The position numbers were made by a program, and so were the translations under genes. Below are positions 35,248 through 43,520 of a DNA stretch of 57,166 nt, piece after piece. Within the stretch, counting starts at the first letter, position 1. Each line of letters opens with the position of its first letter. This stretch comes from Armatimonadota bacterium (lineage in GTDB: Bacteria > Armatimonadota > Fimbriimonadia > Fimbriimonadales > Fimbriimonadaceae). The stretch is from contig JAGQUX010000019.1 of NCBI GenBank assembly GCA_020438215.1, positions 1 to 57,166 on the forward strand, read 5' to 3'. The notes under the pieces are model-generated. The model saw nothing but the letters and a program-made list of their open reading frames with translations, was not told the origin of the DNA and ran no database searches.

Positions 35248-35553
35248 ATTACTAGAGTACTCCTAGTTTATGATAAAAATATTGAAAGAGCTAATTGAGA
35301 GCCGATTTCTCGCACGCTTGCATCTGACTCACGTCCGCGACGCATAAAAATTGACCCGAGTTTCACTTCTCATATTCACGGTAGTGTTGCCGCATGGCTG
35401 GCGGTAGCTTCTCGATTGCCGCCCGCAAACCTCCCCGGTGCATAACCGAGGCGCACTGATCCTAAATTTGCGAGCTAGCTAACAGAATCGCGCATTTTGG
35501 ATTCACCTATCCGGGTCCCGCCCCTCCCTTCCCACGCGAAGTACCATCTCGCT
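35248..35553. other. Intergenic region upstream of the his leader
   Basis: No gene seen. It should hold the his promoter, but no clear -35/-10 pair is visible. A small hairpin (GGCGG...CCGCC, about 35400-35424) is the only structure noticed. A promoter for the divergent APH-like gene must also lie here. Confidence 0.4.
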
Positions 35554-35604
35554 GTGACCAAAAGTCGCTTCGCAAATCAGCACCATCATCATCACCACGT
35601 TTAA
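35554..35604 (+). CDS. hisL: Histidine leader peptide
   Basis: A 16-codon ORF starting at GTG and ending in TAA: M-T-K-S-R-F-A-N-Q followed by six consecutive His codons (CAC CAT CAT CAT CAC CAC) and Val. It stands 125 bases before hisG and just before a strong terminator. In known his leaders, a ribosome stalled at the His codons when charged tRNA-His is scarce prevents terminator formation. The ribosome-binding site is weak, so GTG as the start is the less certain part. The six-His run itself is unambiguous. Confidence 0.88.
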   Translation: MTKSRFANQHHHHHHV

Positions 35605-35664
35605 TCGGTGGAGGTGATTTGTTGTTTTGCGAAAACCGCCGCCGGGCTTCTGGCGGCGGTTTTT
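35569..35664 (+). promoter_or_regulatory. his attenuator: pairing regions and terminator
   Basis: The terminator is an AAAACCGCCGCC / GGCGGCGGTTTT stem (35632-35643 with 35652-35663) followed by more T residues. Alternative pairings exist. TTCGCAAA in the leader (35569-35576) is complementary to TTTGCGAA (35626-35633), which overlaps the base of the terminator stem. CCAC (35595-35598) can pair with GTGG (35608-35611), and ATCACC (35591-35596) with GGTGAT (35613-35618). These fit the pause and antiterminator hairpins of a ribosome-mediated attenuator. Confidence 0.85.
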
Positions 35665-35729
35665 CTTTGTTAGCTCCTCAAAATTCCTCCACATCAGATG
35701 TTCCGGCTCCGTAGCAGTCAGGAACAGCC

Positions 35730-36596
35730 ATGTCTCAGTCATCAAAAATACAGTTCGCACTTCCCAAGGGAAGGATGTACGAATCCATTATTCAGCTTCT
35801 TGCGGATGCCGGAATCAAGCTCACCACATCCGAGCGAGGGTATCGCCCCTCGCTCAGTCTGGATGAGGTCGACACCAAGATTCTCAAACCCCAGAACATC
35901 ATTGAGATGCTGGATTTGGGCTCGCGGGATGTTGGCTTCGCCGGTGCCGACTGGGTAGAAGAACTTGGCGCAGATGTCATCGAAATCCTAGATACTGGGC
36001 TAGATCGAGTTCAAATTGTTGTCGCTGCTTCCCCGTTGGTAATGAGAGATGGACAGTTGACCAACACTCCTCTCCGCGTCGCCAGCGAGTACGAACGACT
36101 GACTCGCCAGTGGCTTGCAAATTCGAATCGGACGGATACTATTATCCGCTCATTCGGCTCGACGGAAGTCTTCCCACCAGAGGATGCGGATTATGTGATC
36201 GACATCTCGGCGACTGGCTCCACGCTCCGCGCCAACCAACTCTTAGTGATTGAAGAGATTGGCGAATCATCAACGCGGCTGTATGCCAGCCGAAAAGCGA
36301 TGGGCAACCCGGAAAAACGAAAGTGGATTGAGGATCTGCGAATGGTGCTGGATTCCGTTCTGCTTGCCCGCAAACGAGTGATGGTTGAGGCAAACGTAGA
36401 ATCCGCCTGCCTGGACGCAATCATGGCGATCTTCCCGGCGATGAAGCAACCAACCGTTTCTAAACTTGCTGGCAACCAGGGATTCGCGGTCAAAGCCGCG
36501 GTGGAGCGGGATCAAATCTTCCAACTCATCCCGAGCCTCAAGCACGCAGGAGCTTCTGACATTGTCATCACCGACATCTCCAAGGTGGTGCGGTAA
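35730..36596 (+). CDS. hisG: ATP phosphoribosyltransferase
   Basis: First enzyme of histidine synthesis: condenses ATP and PRPP. At 288 residues this is the long (HisG-L) form, with its own C-terminal regulatory domain (about 210-288) for histidine feedback, so no HisZ is needed. FALPKGRMYESIIQLL is the N-terminal signature, and the ISATGSTLRANQL loop the PRPP-binding motif. The stop overlaps the next start (TAATG). First structural gene of the operon. Confidence 0.97.
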   Translation: MSQSSKIQFALPKGRMYESIIQLLADAGIKLTTSERGYRPSLSLDEVDTKILKPQNIIEMLDLGSRDVGFAGADWVEELGADVIEILDTGLDRVQIVVAASPLVMRDGQLTNTPLRVASEYERLTRQWLANSNRTDTIIRSFGSTEVFPPEDADYVIDISATGSTLRANQLLVIEEIGESSTRLYASRKAMGNPEKRKWIEDLRMVLDSVLLARKRVMVEANVESACLDAIMAIFPAMKQPTVSKLAGNQGFAVKAAVERDQIFQLIPSLKHAGASDIVITDISKVVR

Positions 36597-37636
36597 TGGC
36601 GATTCCAATCACTGAACGTTCAAAAAGAATGCCGCTTGCCTACCCAAACACACCAATGGATGTCGATATCCAGCTTGATCTGAAAGACTCCATTCCCAAT
36701 TGGCGAGGACTGGTTCCCGACGTGGAATCCAGCTATCCCGACACATCAACTCTCCAGTGGCGGATTTCAGAAAAACGAGGGGTGAGCATAGATCAAGTGC
36801 GTGTGACTGCCGGGGCCGATGATGCTCTCTGGCAACTGATAACCGCCTTCCTCGAGCCAGGACTGAATTTGATCACCACGTCACCTTGCTTCCCGATGAT
36901 CCCTCGGTATGTTGCGGCGGCAGGAGGAGAACTCAAGACTTGCCAATGGCTCGATGGAGACTTTCCCACTCAGTCTTTGATCAGCCAGATCGATGACAAA
37001 ACGAGCGTTGTGTTAGTCACCTCGCCCAACAATCCAACCGGGCGATGCATCCCTTTTGATCAAATCCTCTCGTTGGCTGAAAACGCTTCCAATTCGGTCT
37101 TTGTTTGGGATGCCGTCTACGCGGATTATTGCAATCAGTCTCCACTGAAAATCTTGGACTGCGTACCGAATTCCGTCATCGTTGAGAGTTTCAGTAAGAG
37201 CTATGGTGTCCCCGGTGCTCGTCTTGGGTTTGCTATCACGTCAAACCCGGAGATCCTTGAGCGGATGGCGCAGGTCGCCCAGCCGTATTCGGTCTCAACG
37301 GGTTCCCTCGCTCTTGGAGCAACGTTGTTGGATCAGGAAACGGAGTTTTCTTCCGCACGGCAGAAGATCATTAAGAACCGTGAGCTTCTACAAAACTGGC
37401 TTCAAGACCAAGGAATTTCAGTGCTTCCCTCGGATGCCAATTTCTTACTGGTCAGATCAGGAAGTGCTACTGAAGCCCTCACTACCTGCGAGCAGTTGAA
37501 GAAAAAGGGGATTCTCGTCAGGAGCTTCGCCCCTGATTCTGAAATCGGCACATATCTCCGTGTTGGAGTCCCCTATACCAACGAGGATTTGGCCTTGTTC
37601 CAATCCGCATGGATGGAGGTGACATCGTGTCAATAA
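36596..37636 (+). CDS. hisC: Histidinol-phosphate aminotransferase
   Basis: PLP enzyme of fold type I, seventh step of histidine synthesis. TSPNNPTGRC is the conserved NPTG motif, and the Schiff-base Lys lies in SFSKSYGVPGARLGF. At 346 residues it is of normal length. The start shares one base with the hisG stop. GGTGG lies about ten bases upstream inside hisG. Confidence 0.95.
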   Translation: MAIPITERSKRMPLAYPNTPMDVDIQLDLKDSIPNWRGLVPDVESSYPDTSTLQWRISEKRGVSIDQVRVTAGADDALWQLITAFLEPGLNLITTSPCFPMIPRYVAAAGGELKTCQWLDGDFPTQSLISQIDDKTSVVLVTSPNNPTGRCIPFDQILSLAENASNSVFVWDAVYADYCNQSPLKILDCVPNSVIVESFSKSYGVPGARLGFAITSNPEILERMAQVAQPYSVSTGSLALGATLLDQETEFSSARQKIIKNRELLQNWLQDQGISVLPSDANFLLVRSGSATEALTTCEQLKKKGILVRSFAPDSEIGTYLRVGVPYTNEDLALFQSAWMEVTSCQ

Positions 37637-38223
37637 AGGTGCACTACATCCCCACCGGAGTCGCAAATCTGGCTTCTCTTCGAACTGGTTTCTGGCAATT
37701 GGAAGCTGAACTGACTCCTGCCGAAACCGCTGACGAAGTGCGGAATGCCGACTATCTGCTTTTGCCAGGAGTAGGAGCCTTCACAGCAGCGATAAACGCA
37801 CTCACAGAGTTGAATATCAAAGAATCATTAACCGAGCGCATTCAATCTGATCGCCCCACTTTTGCCGTGTGCCTCGGGATGCAGTTGCTTGCCCAATCGA
37901 GTGAGGAAGCTCCCGGGCTTCCCGGACTCGGAATTGTCGAGGCAAAGGTGGAATGGCTCGGACGAAACGCAGCCGTTGTTCCCCACATGGGATGGAACCG
38001 TGTCGTAGGATCTGGCGCGGCGGAATACGCTTACTTTGCGAACTCATTCGCCATTCGCGCTGATCAAATCACCGGCTGGAACGTTGCAAGCTTTGAGTAC
38101 GGCGATCAGTACATAGCGATGATGCAACGAGGGGTAACAGTAGCCTGCCAGTTTCACCCAGAGATTTCCGGAAATTATGGCAAGTCGATCATGCGTAACT
38201 GGTTGGAGGGCAAATCATGCTAA
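37627..38223 (+). CDS. hisH: Imidazole glycerol phosphate synthase, glutaminase subunit
   Basis: Class I glutamine amidotransferase that feeds ammonia to HisF. The nucleophile is Cys in FAVCLGMQLLAQ, and His and Glu are in CQFHPEISG. The start is the GTG at 37627, because GGAGG lies seven bases upstream; a longer in-frame ATG at 37609 has no site. It overlaps hisC by ten bases. The 198 residues are normal for HisH. Confidence 0.95.
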   Translation: MSIKVHYIPTGVANLASLRTGFWQLEAELTPAETADEVRNADYLLLPGVGAFTAAINALTELNIKESLTERIQSDRPTFAVCLGMQLLAQSSEEAPGLPGLGIVEAKVEWLGRNAAVVPHMGWNRVVGSGAAEYAYFANSFAIRADQITGWNVASFEYGDQYIAMMQRGVTVACQFHPEISGNYGKSIMRNWLEGKSC

Positions 38224-38957
38224 CGCGGAGGGTGATTCCTTGCCTTGATATTAACGGTGGGCGCGTTGTCAAAGGCGTTCAGTTCCAATCGCTTCGAGAT
38301 GCCGGCGATCCCGTTACCTGCGCAGCACTCTATGAGAGCCAAGGTGCGGATGAGATTGTAGTGCTGGATGTCTCAGCTACTTTGGAAGCGAGAAAAACGG
38401 CTCGTCAGATGGTAAGTGCCATCCGTGGAGTTCTCTCAATTCCATTGACTGTCGGCGGAGGCGTTCGGTCGCTTGATGATGTCTGGCAACTGTTGGAATT
38501 CGGAGCGGACAAGGTCGCAATAAACACCGCCGCCAGCGAAAATCCAGATTTGATCAATCAGGTCGCGGAGCGTTTTGGTCGCCAGTGCACCGTCGTTGCC
38601 ATTGACAACCAGCAAGGTTCTGTTTTTACACACGCTGGCAGTCGAAACACCAATAGAAAAACCACCGAATGGACAAAGGAAGTAGCCGAGCGCGGTGCGG
38701 GAGAAATCCTGCTCACAAGCATTGATTGTGACGGCAAGCAAGCGGGATTCAACACCCAGTTACTGGCCCAAGTCCGCAAGGCAGTCTCAATTCCGATCAT
38801 TGCATCGGGAGGTGCAGGGTGTTTGAAGCACTTTTCCGATGCAATTCAATCTGGTGCCGATGCTGTTCTCGCCGCTAGCCTTTTTCACGACCAAGTGCTT
38901 TCTATCCAAGAAGTCAAATCCTATTTTCGTTCCCAAAACATCGAGGTGCGCTCATGA
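38217..38957 (+). CDS. hisF: Imidazole glycerol phosphate synthase, cyclase subunit
   Basis: TIM barrel that closes the imidazole ring using ammonia from HisH. Catalytic Asp residues are in PCLDINGGRVVKG (D11) and VVAIDNQQGS (about D130). The ATG overlaps the end of hisH. At 246 residues it is of usual length. The stop of hisF overlaps the next start (ATGA). Confidence 0.96.
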   Translation: MLTRRVIPCLDINGGRVVKGVQFQSLRDAGDPVTCAALYESQGADEIVVLDVSATLEARKTARQMVSAIRGVLSIPLTVGGGVRSLDDVWQLLEFGADKVAINTAASENPDLINQVAERFGRQCTVVAIDNQQGSVFTHAGSRNTNRKTTEWTKEVAERGAGEILLTSIDCDGKQAGFNTQLLAQVRKAVSIPIIASGGAGCLKHFSDAIQSGADAVLAASLFHDQVLSIQEVKSYFRSQNIEVRS

Positions 38958-40210
38958 TCATCCCTTCCATTGATATACAAAATGGCCGCGTTGTCCAACT
39001 GCGCCATGGCAAAGAACTGATCTTGGAATCAGACCGCGATCCCATAGAACTGGTCAAGCATTTTTCGATCTGCGGAGAAGTTGCGGTCATTGATCTTGAT
39101 GCGGCAATGGGGCGAGGCAACAACGAAGCCCTAATAACCGAAATGGTCAAGCCTGGCCGGTGCCGAGTCGGCGGGGGTAGCCGCGATGTCGACACCGCCA
39201 TCAAGTGGCTGGATCGTGGCGCACGAAAAGTCATTCTTGGAACGGCGGCAACACCAGAAATCCTCTCTCAACTTCCCCGCTCGCGAGTGATGGCGGCGGT
39301 GGACATCCGAGACGGCAAAGTCTCAACTCAGGGATGGACGAAGGATACGAGTCAGGATGGGCTTGATACTCTCAGGGCTTTACGGGAATATGTCAGCGGC
39401 TTTCTTGTCACGAATATTGGCAGAGAAGGAACTCTGGCTGGCTTAGACAAGCAGTTCGCACTCGATGTCAAAGAGGCGGCAGGGGATGTGCCCGTCACCT
39501 TGGCTGGAGGAATCTCCACGTTGGACGAAATCAAGCAACTCGACACGATGGGCATGGATGCACAGGTAGGAATGGCGATGTATCAAGGTCACTTCACCTT
39601 GGGTCAAGGGTTTGCCGCTTGCTTGAAATCTGATCGCGATGATGGATTGATCCCGACTGTTGTTTGCAACGAGAACGGAGCCTGCTTAGGGTTGGTTTAC
39701 TCATCCCAAGAGAGCCTTGCCCAGGCAATTGATGGAGAGGCTGGAATCTACTATTCTCGCAAGCGGGGAATCTGGAGAAAAGGCGAGTCGAGCGGCAATC
39801 AACAAAAACTCATCCGGGTTGATCGCGATTGCGACTCCGACGCTTTGCGGTTCACAGTGCAGCAAGAAGGCGATGGATTCTGCCACTTAGGTCGTCAGAG
39901 TTGCTTTGGGGAAAGCCGCACCCTTGATGCGCTGGAAGAGCGGATTGATCGTGCGATCGCTTCTGCCGAAGACAGTTCCTATACAAAGCGACTGATTGGT
40001 GACACCAACCTGCTCAACTCCAAAATCAAGGAGGAAGCAGTTGAGCTAGCCGAAGCTGAATCTCGGGAAGATGTCATCTGGGAAGCCGCCGACCTGCTCT
40101 ACTTCGCTACTGTGAAGTTGCGCTCAGCGAATTTGAATTGGGCGGATATCTGGCCAGAACTGGAAAGCAGGTCACTCAGGATCAACCGCCGAAGAGGGGA
40201 TGCAAAATGA
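38954..40210 (+). CDS. hisA/hisI/hisE: HisA-HisI-HisE trifunctional fusion
   Basis: One 418-residue polypeptide combining three activities. Residues about 1-226 are HisA, a TIM barrel with D7 (IIPSIDIQNG), D117 (AAVDIRDG) and the T/GT loop VTNIGREGTLAG. Residues about 228-320 are HisI (phosphoribosyl-AMP cyclohydrolase) with WRKGESSG, DCDSDAL (292-298) and FCHLGRQSCFG (C310, H311, C317). Residues about 324-418 are HisE (phosphoribosyl-ATP pyrophosphatase) with KIKEEAVELAEA and EAADLLYF. HisI-HisE fusions are common; joining HisA in front of them is one I do not know. There is no in-frame stop or start between parts. It overlaps hisF and hisD by four bases each. Confidence 0.93.
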   Translation: MIIPSIDIQNGRVVQLRHGKELILESDRDPIELVKHFSICGEVAVIDLDAAMGRGNNEALITEMVKPGRCRVGGGSRDVDTAIKWLDRGARKVILGTAATPEILSQLPRSRVMAAVDIRDGKVSTQGWTKDTSQDGLDTLRALREYVSGFLVTNIGREGTLAGLDKQFALDVKEAAGDVPVTLAGGISTLDEIKQLDTMGMDAQVGMAMYQGHFTLGQGFAACLKSDRDDGLIPTVVCNENGACLGLVYSSQESLAQAIDGEAGIYYSRKRGIWRKGESSGNQQKLIRVDRDCDSDALRFTVQQEGDGFCHLGRQSCFGESRTLDALEERIDRAIASAEDSSYTKRLIGDTNLLNSKIKEEAVELAEAESREDVIWEAADLLYFATVKLRSANLNWADIWPELESRSLRINRRRGDAK

Positions 40211-41478
40211 GCATCAAGATCATCGCTCAAAGCGAACTCCGAAGCCGAAGCCTGGGCGCAATCCCACAAGGAGTGTTGGAGAAAGCGCGGCACATCGTCG
40301 AAGATATCCGGGCTGGTGGAAAAGAAGCCGCCGTCACTTATGCTCAGAAGTTTGATCAGCTTGGCGATCGCCCATTGCTGGTTACCAAGGAAGAACGAAA
40401 AGACGCTCTTGATCAACTCAAGCCGTCGGATCGCCAAGTTTTAGAATCCGCGGCGGGGCGCATTCGCACATTTGCCGAAGCCCACCGAGCCGCTCTCCAG
40501 GATTTTGAGATCACTGAGCCTTTGAGTGGGGCAAGAATGGGCGTGCGTCACCAGCCAGTGGACTGCGCAGGGTGCTACGCTCCTGGCGGGCGATATCCGC
40601 TTGTCTCCAGCATCCTCATGACGGTGATTCCCGCCAAGGTTGCCGGAGTCAAAGAGGTAGTGCTCGCCACCCCGAATGCGACTCCACTCATGCTGGCGGC
40701 GGCGGAAATTGCTGGCGCCGATGCCGTTCTGAGAATCGGAGGCGCACAGGCAATCGCTTCCCTTGCGTTCGGAATTTCTGGTAATTCTCACTCCGATATG
40801 ATTGTCGGGCCGGGTAATCAGTGGGTGACCGCAGCAAAGCAGATCATCTCTGCGGAGAGGGGAATTGATATGCTGGCTGGCCCATCCGAGCTTCTCATCA
40901 TCGCCGATGATTCTGCGCCGCCGGATTTGATTGCGGCGGATCTGCTGGCTCAAGCCGAGCATGATGTGGAGGCAATCCCGCTTGTGATCTGCACAAGTCA
41001 GGCACTCGCGGAGAAGGTGCAGACAGAGGTGGATGCTCAGCTCAATGCCTTGCCGGAGCCGAATCGCTCAACCGCTCGGGCGGCTTTGGAAAATGGCGGA
41101 GTCGTGATCTCAGATTCGCCTGATGATGCGGTTCGCCTGGCGAACGATATCGCTCCCGAGCACTTGGAGATCATGACGGAGAACCCCGAGGCGCTGGCTT
41201 CGCGGTGCCGGAACTTTGGTGGGCTCTTTATTGGGTCACACGCAGCGGAGGTGTTTGGCGACTATGGGATTGGCCCGAACCACACATTGCCTACTTCGGG
41301 GGTCGCCAAGTTCAGTGCGGGGCTTTCCGTCGCTCACTTCCTTCGTGCTCAGACGTATATTGCCTGCGATCAACCCGTAGGAGGTGAGATTGTCGATCAG
41401 ACTGTGAAGCTGGCAAGGATGGAGGGGCTAGAGGGCCACGCTCAAGCGGCTTTGCGACGAAGGGGTGCTCAATTGTAG
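40207..41478 (+). CDS. hisD: Histidinol dehydrogenase
   Basis: Last two oxidation steps to histidine, zinc- and NAD-dependent. Conserved stretches: GCYAPGGRYPLVSSILMT, IVGPGNQWVTAAK, QAEHDVEAI (zinc His), APEHLEI and GPNHTLPTSG. The final zinc His is in LEGHAQAALRRR. The start at 40207 gives 424 residues and the ATGA overlap with the preceding gene; a longer reading from 40138 adds an unrelated N-terminus. GAGGGG lies upstream. Last gene of the his operon. Confidence 0.96.
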   Translation: MSIKIIAQSELRSRSLGAIPQGVLEKARHIVEDIRAGGKEAAVTYAQKFDQLGDRPLLVTKEERKDALDQLKPSDRQVLESAAGRIRTFAEAHRAALQDFEITEPLSGARMGVRHQPVDCAGCYAPGGRYPLVSSILMTVIPAKVAGVKEVVLATPNATPLMLAAAEIAGADAVLRIGGAQAIASLAFGISGNSHSDMIVGPGNQWVTAAKQIISAERGIDMLAGPSELLIIADDSAPPDLIAADLLAQAEHDVEAIPLVICTSQALAEKVQTEVDAQLNALPEPNRSTARAALENGGVVISDSPDDAVRLANDIAPEHLEIMTENPEALASRCRNFGGLFIGSHAAEVFGDYGIGPNHTLPTSGVAKFSAGLSVAHFLRAQTYIACDQPVGGEIVDQTVKLARMEGLEGHAQAALRRRGAQL

Positions 41479-41630: not shown

Positions 41631-43373
41631 CTAGCTCCTTTTCCTCGTCGCAGCGTTTTCGAGGTGGTCGCCACAGTGGTTGACCACGATGAGGCCCGAC
41701 TCTTTATCAACGGCGAAGTGAACGCGCAGGAATCGATTGCGGTCTGATCGATCAAGCTTGGCATGGGGCTCCATCGAGAGCTCTCGCCCTTTGTAATTGA
41801 ACTGCCGTTGGGCCATCAGTTTCGGGTTGCTTCGAGTCGTGTCGGACTCGGTGAACGAAATGTCGCAGCCGCTTTTTGCCCTAAACTCTTGCTCAAGTTG
41901 CCGACGTTCTAGGGACTGATTGAACGACAGATCATGGAGGTCGGTCGCCAGTGACCAAAGCAGGCTCCAAACATCTCCAATGTCACTCCTGACATCGTTG
42001 AACTCGGCATTCTTGGCCGTGCGCATGGCACGCTTCGTAAACACGATTCTTTGCGGATGGAGTTCGGCGATCAACTCAACGCACTCCTGAACCGTTACCG
42101 GCAACTTCCGGAAGTGGTCGATAGCTTCGAGCGCCTTTTTGGCTTGGCCGAGCTGCTTCTCCGCTTCGACCCGCGCCTCGGTTGCGATGGCTTCTTGGTT
42201 ATCGGCGTGTTGCTTGCCTTCCCGAGCCAACTCAAGATCGAATTCCAATTGCTCGTTCTCCTTTTGGAGTTCATCGATCTTCTCCTCCAGACGCTTGTTG
42301 TCAGCTTCAAAGAGTTCAATAAGCTCTGTATCAGTCCCCGGGGCAAGCGACTCACGCAGTTGCCGCAAGCGATTTCGCCGGTGCCGATCTTGAACGTCTT
42401 CGAGCGTAAAAACGGCATCATGGCGACCTAGATCCATCCTTCGAGTCAACGCCCGAATGATTTCGACAGCGACTTGAGAAGCTCCAAGCTCGTCGATCTG
42501 ATTCTTGCTGTAGTAGCGATGGCGTCCAGAATCCCGATCGTCATCGAACCGAACGCCAGGTTGGTAGATGCGTACCATCCCGTCCAATGCTCGGAACCGG
42601 AAAGGCAGTGCTTCGATCAGAGCCGATTCGGCCTCCCCGTCTTGTGAGACAATAATCGCCGCCGCTCCAGCGATTTTCTTAGAAAGTCCTTGCGGGACGA
42701 CGAGAGGATCGAGGTGCGTCCGTTCTCTGGCCACCCATACAATTGGGCATCTCCGCTCCGTGGATGCAAGCAGATCAAGAATGTGGGGGACGTCCTTCAC
42801 TTCAAAAGGCAACGGACCGTTCGTCAAAGGAAGATCGCCTGAATGAGGCATCCAATAATCAGAAAGGAACTGCTCGACGATTTTCGGCGCGGAGAACGAG
42901 GGTGGAACTGGCTCAGCGCCAACATAGCCGTGCCGGATGAAATGGGTCACCGTAATGCCAATCGTGAATTCGCCTTCACCTTGCGCGATGATTCCGATAT
43001 CAGAACACCAATATCGATCCCGAACCGAACTATCCTGAATCTGCATTCTCGCTGCCCAGAACTGGGGCTGATCAGGTGTTCCATTGCCGATCTCGCGATT
43101 CGTCTCGACAAACTGACCCAAAACATTTGGGTGCTTGCAGTTTCCGTAGGTGTAAAACCAGGACTGGCCCAGCTCATCACCCATCCCTGAGCGCTCACGC
43201 ATCCAAGCCCGAACGGTTTTGACCAGGGTCTTCCATGCTTCCGGTGAGCCGTCCTTGGGCCGCACGTCGAATGAAGCTTGGTAATGCAAATTTGTATGAA
43301 GCCGCACTCTACACTTTATACTCGACACTTTGGGTTCGAATGTAACTGAAACCGGAGACTGATCAGACTCCAA
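41631..43373 (-). CDS. Orphan 580-residue island protein of unknown function
   Basis: I do not recognise this protein. The N-terminal half (about 1-330) includes LLASTERRCPIVWVARERTH and MVRIYQPGVRFDDD, patterns suggesting a nucleotide- or nucleic-acid-handling fold that I cannot name. Residues about 345-445 form a long charged coiled coil. The C-terminal part (about 445-580) ends with KLDRSDRNRFLRVHFAVD and VVNHCGDHLENA. The second of these, an H-C-G-x-H-L pattern with nearby polar residues, could be an active or metal site. The start is TTG at 43373, with an alternative GTG near 43307; no ATG is close. As the sole island cargo, a defence or toxin role is an inference. Confidence 0.7.
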   Translation of the reverse strand: MESDQSPVSVTFEPKVSSIKCRVRLHTNLHYQASFDVRPKDGSPEAWKTLVKTVRAWMRERSGMGDELGQSWFYTYGNCKHPNVLGQFVETNREIGNGTPDQPQFWAARMQIQDSSVRDRYWCSDIGIIAQGEGEFTIGITVTHFIRHGYVGAEPVPPSFSAPKIVEQFLSDYWMPHSGDLPLTNGPLPFEVKDVPHILDLLASTERRCPIVWVARERTHLDPLVVPQGLSKKIAGAAAIIVSQDGEAESALIEALPFRFRALDGMVRIYQPGVRFDDDRDSGRHRYYSKNQIDELGASQVAVEIIRALTRRMDLGRHDAVFTLEDVQDRHRRNRLRQLRESLAPGTDTELIELFEADNKRLEEKIDELQKENEQLEFDLELAREGKQHADNQEAIATEARVEAEKQLGQAKKALEAIDHFRKLPVTVQECVELIAELHPQRIVFTKRAMRTAKNAEFNDVRSDIGDVWSLLWSLATDLHDLSFNQSLERRQLEQEFRAKSGCDISFTESDTTRSNPKLMAQRQFNYKGRELSMEPHAKLDRSDRNRFLRVHFAVDKESGLIVVNHCGDHLENAATRKRS

Positions 43374-43436: not shown

Positions 43437-43454
43437 GGGGAAAGTGGTACTCCG
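43437..43454. repeat. Right attachment-site-like repeat
   Basis: GGGGAAAGTGGTACTCCG: overlaps the 3' end of the tRNA-Glu gene (last ten bases belong to the tRNA). Pairs with the repeat at 41484-41501. Confidence 0.82.
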
Positions 43455-43520
43455 GACGGGATTCGAACCCGCGACCTTCGCCGTGAAAGGGCGACGTCCT
43501 AACCGCTAGACGACCGGAGC
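43445..43520 (-). tRNA. tRNA-Glu (anticodon UUC)
   Basis: A full cloverleaf on the minus strand. Acceptor arm GCTCCGG / CCGGAGT (one G-T pair), anticodon stem TCGCC / GGCGA with loop CTTTCAC (anticodon TTC), T arm GCGGG-TTCGAAT-CCCGT. Discriminator A and CCA are encoded. Its 3' end is the probable integration site of the adjoining mini-island. The CCA end is intact, so the gene should still function. Confidence 0.97.

Follow-up and report, generated by a model that had tools for sequence, protein, structure and literature searches.

Our analysis suggests, with high confidence, that the hisG-C-H-F-A(IE)-D operon of a bacterium of the family Fimbriimonadaceae, in the little-studied phylum Armatimonadota, is controlled by ribosome-mediated transcription attenuation. 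The element occupies positions 35554-35664 of the stretch of DNA that was analysed (57,166 nucleotides, referred to below as the window). As a sequence element the attenuator is real, and it very probably functions as proposed in the preliminary description, which also considered that the host might be an Armatimonadota, as it turns out to be. More broadly, we lean towards the view that a deep-branching, horizontally exchanged his operon, containing a hisA-hisI-hisE fusion, has taken a leaderless, ribosome-sensing His attenuator of its own into about ten bacterial phyla; that this one switch functions in hosts whose transcription and translation machineries differ greatly; and that the window species is one recipient.

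The leader and its operon

The features of the leader region, all on the plus strand, are as follows.

35542-35547, plus strand: putative -10 box TACCAT, 6 nt 5' of the leader start codon, with no recognisable -35 (sequence)
35554-35604, plus strand: leader peptide ORF with GTG start, MTKSRFANQHHHHHHV, stop TAA at 35602-35604 (sequence; leader ORFs in relatives)
35581-35598, plus strand: six consecutive His codons, the presumed regulatory codons (sequence; shuffle and family counts)
35569-35633, plus strand: hairpin 1:2, the His codon region with the region past the stop codon, predicted anti-antiterminator (MFE fold; shuffle p 0.035)
35605-35645, plus strand: predicted antiterminator 2:3, core CGGTGG 35606-35611 with CCGCCG 35639-35644 (folds; shuffle p 0.015)
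35634-35664, plus strand: intrinsic terminator 3:4 and U run (sequence, fold and model R1 match 35578-35670)

The leader ORF is 16 codons long, six of them His, and lies ahead of the his operon; this peptide can be read directly in the sequence, as first described. The His run is not a chance occurrence, since (CAY)6 is found once in the window against 0.00 expected from dinucleotide shuffles, and the only occurrence of (CAY)6-NNN-TAA in 85 family genomes is the window leader itself. An in-frame TTG at 35497 could also open the ORF (35 aa). The GTG at 35554 is the preferred start, if not a certain one, because the TACCAT box lies 6 nt upstream of it, as in the relatives. No Shine-Dalgarno (SD) motif was found ahead of the window leader start.

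The genes downstream, again on the plus strand, are as follows.

35730-36596, plus strand: hisG, encoding ATP phosphoribosyltransferase, which opens the presumably regulated operon (TIGR00070 and TIGR03455, both over cut-off)
36596-37636, plus strand: hisC-like aminotransferase (best family TIGR01141, below its cut-off)
37609-38223, plus strand: hisH (TIGR01855 over cut-off)
38217-38957, plus strand: hisF (TIGR00735 over cut-off)
38954-40210, plus strand: hisA-hisI-hisE fusion gene (HisA at 2-216 and HisIE at 224-407 of 418 aa)
40207-41478, plus strand: hisD (TIGR00069 over cut-off)

The hisB gene of this genome is on another contig. The gene order hisG-C-B-H-F-A-I-E-D recurs among relatives in the same HisG clade, with hisC undetected in some lineages, and the hisA-hisI-hisE fusion is a single frame in each of the 36 related loci where this could be assessed. 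Of the five his gene fusions listed in a 2007 survey, none is hisA-hisIE (PMC1963479). Between hisD and a tRNA-Glu (43445-43520), the minus strand encodes a 580-aa protein (41631-43373) with no NCBIfam match.

Alternative RNA folds and the terminator

An intrinsic terminator precedes the first structural gene. Its 12 bp stem (35634-35645 with 35650-35661, loop GCTT) is followed by a T run at 35660-35664, and 65 bases separate 35664 from the hisG ATG at 35730, so that the stem length, T run and spacing noted at the outset are all directly legible in the sequence. The leader stretch has a fold energy of -57.5 kcal/mol, compared with -30.4 +/- 3.3 in shuffled sequences (z -8.2). In this unmasked fold, which corresponds to RNA free of ribosomes, the leader is base-paired to the sequence past the stop codon and the terminator is formed.

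Two further pairings exceed the level of shuffles of the linking segment: the 2:3 pairing, in which 35605-35623 binds the 5' arm of the terminator (-19.0 kcal/mol; p 0.015), and the 1:2 pairing of the His codons with 35606-35619 (-14.5 kcal/mol; p 0.035). Because 14 nt are common to both, they are mutually exclusive, which bears out the alternative hairpins of the preliminary description. Ribosome footprints, taken to extend 12-15 nt past the A site, were used to mask the RNA in further folds. When the His region is masked and the terminator 3' arm is absent, the remainder is predicted to fold as the antiterminator (-19.0 kcal/mol); when a ribosome at the stop codon masks the RNA up to 35617, the terminator alone is left. 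Terminator and antiterminator are thus mutually exclusive and laid out so that ribosome position decides between them, and the predicted fold geometry is that of classical attenuation.

Occurrence of the leader in related operons

The HisG clade to which the window belongs is represented by 65 loci, and a His-rich leader ORF precedes hisG in 46 of them (0.08 expected). A terminator is present in 37 (1.3 expected), and leader and terminator occur together in 33. When only Armatimonadota loci are considered, the leader is found in 10 of the 13 with HisG of this clade versus none of the 23 with other HisG types, the search in the latter covering up to 350 nt from hisG. In three loci (L003, L004 and L030) a leader located by the covariance model described below lies beyond the 350-nt scope, before hisI-hisG. 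A denser sample of one spirochaete and one planctomycete family gives a leader in 36 of 44 loci and leader plus terminator in 30, including all 14 of the spirochaete loci.

The pairings themselves recur. In a set of 30 loci, pairings 2:3 and 1:2 exceed shuffles with Fisher p of 5e-6 and 4e-10, respectively (rows not independent), and their overlap is present in 29 of the 30. Sequences resembling ACGCCGGCC/GGCCGGCGT in the terminator core and GCCGGTGATGGTG in arm 2 are seen again across phyla, and among the relatives 7 of 10 terminator pairs have pair-keeping changes on both sides. The window arms carry different letters (CGGTGG, CCGCCGCC and GGCGGCGG), all three arms having changed jointly; covariation in these letters of its own is not countable, since the window lacks close relatives, the nearest HisG being 58% identical.

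Model R1, a covariance model trained on 46 relatives with the window excluded, matches the window at 35578-35670 with 43.7 bits (E 1.6e-9). It places 17 held-out relatives at the expected position, and its top match across 291 Armatimonadota genomes is the window. Its false positives are genes that end in a His-rich C-terminal tail with a terminator behind it (L206, L208), and because of such gene ends weaker R1 matches in the phylum were not counted. The leader ORF is therefore conserved in relatives, both by the counts in the HisG clade and by model R1. Rfam family RF00514 (His_leader) scores 25.5 bits in the window, under its 49-bit gathering cut-off, and 20 related loci match no Rfam family at its cut-off. 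A known riboswitch or T-box in the window was ruled out, as the sole Rfam match over cut-off is a tRNA.

Within the family, genus g6 (L015-L020) keeps His leaders, with a U-run terminator that is mostly weak or absent; the mechanism may accordingly vary among relatives. In L017-L019 of this genus the His codons serve as the 5' arm of the hairpin, and L018 has paired changes that turn His codons into Arg codons.

Probable leaderless design

A promoter with a TTGAxx-like -35 and a -10 of the form xANNNT, spaced 16-18 nt apart, ends 5-10 nt ahead of the leader start codon in 31 of the 46 leaders (0.54 expected), which would put the start of transcription at about that codon. SD-like motifs are found at 3 of the 46 leader starts versus 13 of the 46 hisG starts. 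Given the position of these promoters and the scarcity of SD-like motifs, the leaders of most relatives are probably translated from leaderless mRNA. In the same test the window lacks the strict -35/-10 pair and has the -10-like TACCAT alone, correctly placed, and a best-score promoter search put its promoter at a distant site. A leaderless start is thus less clear for the window itself and would be read by analogy, TACCAT being well placed with no -35 to accompany it. The word classical in the preliminary description, apt for the leader, the hairpins and the terminator, needs a qualifier, since most of the relatives appear leaderless.

Proposed mechanism and alternatives

In the mechanism that we propose, a ribosome would begin at GTG 35554, probably at the mRNA 5' end or a few nucleotides from it. 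With ample charged tRNA-His it would arrive at the stop codon at 35602 and cover 35606-35611, so that no antiterminator could form; the terminator at 35634-35664 would then form and transcription would end. With scarce charged tRNA-His the ribosome would stall at the first His codons and leave arm 2 (35605-35623) free to capture the terminator 5' arm before the 3' arm is synthesised, and the polymerase would continue into hisG. If the leader were not translated, it would pair with arm 2, and the terminator would again be expected to form. Leader translation, stalling, termination, a histidine response and a leaderless start are what the anatomy of the region and the comparison with relatives point to.

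It is improbable that the leader senses histidine while acting mainly by way of Rho-dependent termination or of first-gene translation, the hairpin playing a secondary part. In five relatives (L015, L016, L020, L038 and L039) the His leader is retained but a U-run terminator is lacking, which speaks for such a scheme, but in the window a strong stem and U run stand immediately behind the alternative pairing, and the hisG start is 65 nt past that U run. Less credible still is a constitutive terminator of an upstream transcript beside a chance His-rich ORF, with no regulation at all. The gene upstream is on the opposite strand, and therefore there is no transcript for such a terminator to end; and leader, pairing and terminator are found repeatedly ahead of hisG across many phyla, much more often than expected by chance, even if the function of the window leader is a prediction and His-rich C-terminal tails followed by terminators do exist elsewhere (L206, L208). 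Ribosome-mediated attenuation thus remains the preferred reading.

Origin of the operon

The HisG of the window is 47-58% identical to that of a clade spanning about ten phyla, including 12 other Armatimonadota, its nearest relative being at 58%, and only about 31% identical to the HisG of six congeners. In most congeners hisG, hisB and hisD are separately placed, and the his genes of the congeners are of another type. On the HisG tree, the window falls with Holosporaceae/alphaproteobacterial MAG sequences (100/99), close to Phycisphaerales. A tree that unites the armatimonad copies in one clade is rejected (AU p 0.009; 7 label changes). Most simply, the operon and its attenuator are a xenologue, probably imported, that replaced the scattered his genes of the genus. 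We consider it unlikely that Armatimonadota had this operon type ancestrally and that the congeners lost it: the same HisG type is present in other Fimbriimonadales, and the deep branches of the HisG tree are only partly resolved, but the tree position of the window, the rejected armatimonad clade and the scattered his genes of another type in the congeners all speak against it.

Direct import from an E. coli-like proteobacterium is ruled out by a HisG only about 28% identical to that of E. coli, and no plasmid relatives of the window HisG were found above 30% identity. Contamination of the MAG is likewise ruled out. The assembly is 99.4% complete with 0.3% contamination, and a gene 3 kb beyond hisD is matched by a counterpart in each of the seven congeners (57-65% across the C-terminal domain), so the contig credibly belongs to its host.

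Other His leaders in the phylum

In seven genomes of the family, of which three are congeners, model R1 also led to His leaders followed by terminators, placed ahead of hisI-hisG operons or of a related hisI. Each of the family's seven hisI-hisG operons has such a leader and terminator. This second set (L168-L174, in genomes G005, G004, G115, G136, G117, G007 and G116) has strong terminators, and no comparable leader-terminator pair was found at 23 further hisI loci of the family. Because these separate leaders precede hisI-hisG or hisI, predicted attenuation of his genes in Armatimonadota extends beyond the imported operon. In a distant family, L201 (G211:C438:264-391) has a possible His leader (MLFNPVPLHHHRRPGHEPG...) upstream of a HisH-end-like stretch. 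Elsewhere in the phylum, L204 (G192:C168:1531-1657) has a short His-rich ORF (...DHQHHHYYHPGGEPG...) followed by a strong terminator.

Comparison with known systems

The same operon family with its predicted attenuator is found in Armatimonadota, Planctomycetota, Spirochaetota, Gemmatimonadota, Myxococcota, Bacteroidota, Acidobacteriota and Verrucomicrobiota, as well as in a Zixibacteria MAG and alphaproteobacterial MAGs. If the switch works in these hosts, ribosome-polymerase coupling would be required at their his locus, and the element would provide a natural histidine-starvation reporter and an example of a regulatory RNA moving along with its operon. Because a 5' untranslated region is apparently absent, leaderless initiation in these phyla can also be put to a direct test.

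Like hisL of enterobacteria (RF00514), the window has a short His-rich leader before hisG, exclusive hairpins and an intrinsic terminator. Unlike hisL, it scores 25.5 bits against the cut-off of 49, differs in gene content, lacks an SD motif at the leader and precedes an operon whose HisG is only about 28% identical to that of E. coli. In the literature searched, His attenuation is described from Proteobacteria, Actinobacteria and some lineages of Firmicutes (PMC9413887, PMC2965389). Within Firmicutes, His attenuators have been predicted in the B. cereus group, Peptostreptococcaceae and Erysipelotrichales (PMC9413887) and, before hisS/hisZ, in bacilli (PMC2965389). These predictions resemble the window in being non-proteobacterial His leaders with a terminator/antiterminator and no RF00514 match. 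They are called lineage-specific, whereas here another phylum is involved and one operon family bears the leader over about ten phyla. The literature searched gave no earlier report of His attenuation in Armatimonadota, although two surveys cited in PMC4833913 may contain earlier predictions for these phyla.

The trp attenuator rnTrpL of Sinorhizobium meliloti has its RNA 5' end at the leader peptide start codon (PMC7298713), and promoter spacing suggests the same design here. The S. meliloti system, however, responds to tryptophan, belongs to Alphaproteobacteria and has a reported 5' end, the 5' end predicted here being least certain for the window. The mechanism itself is known; the novelty lies in the phylum, in the probable leaderless design and in the way the switch accompanies one operon family from phylum to phylum.
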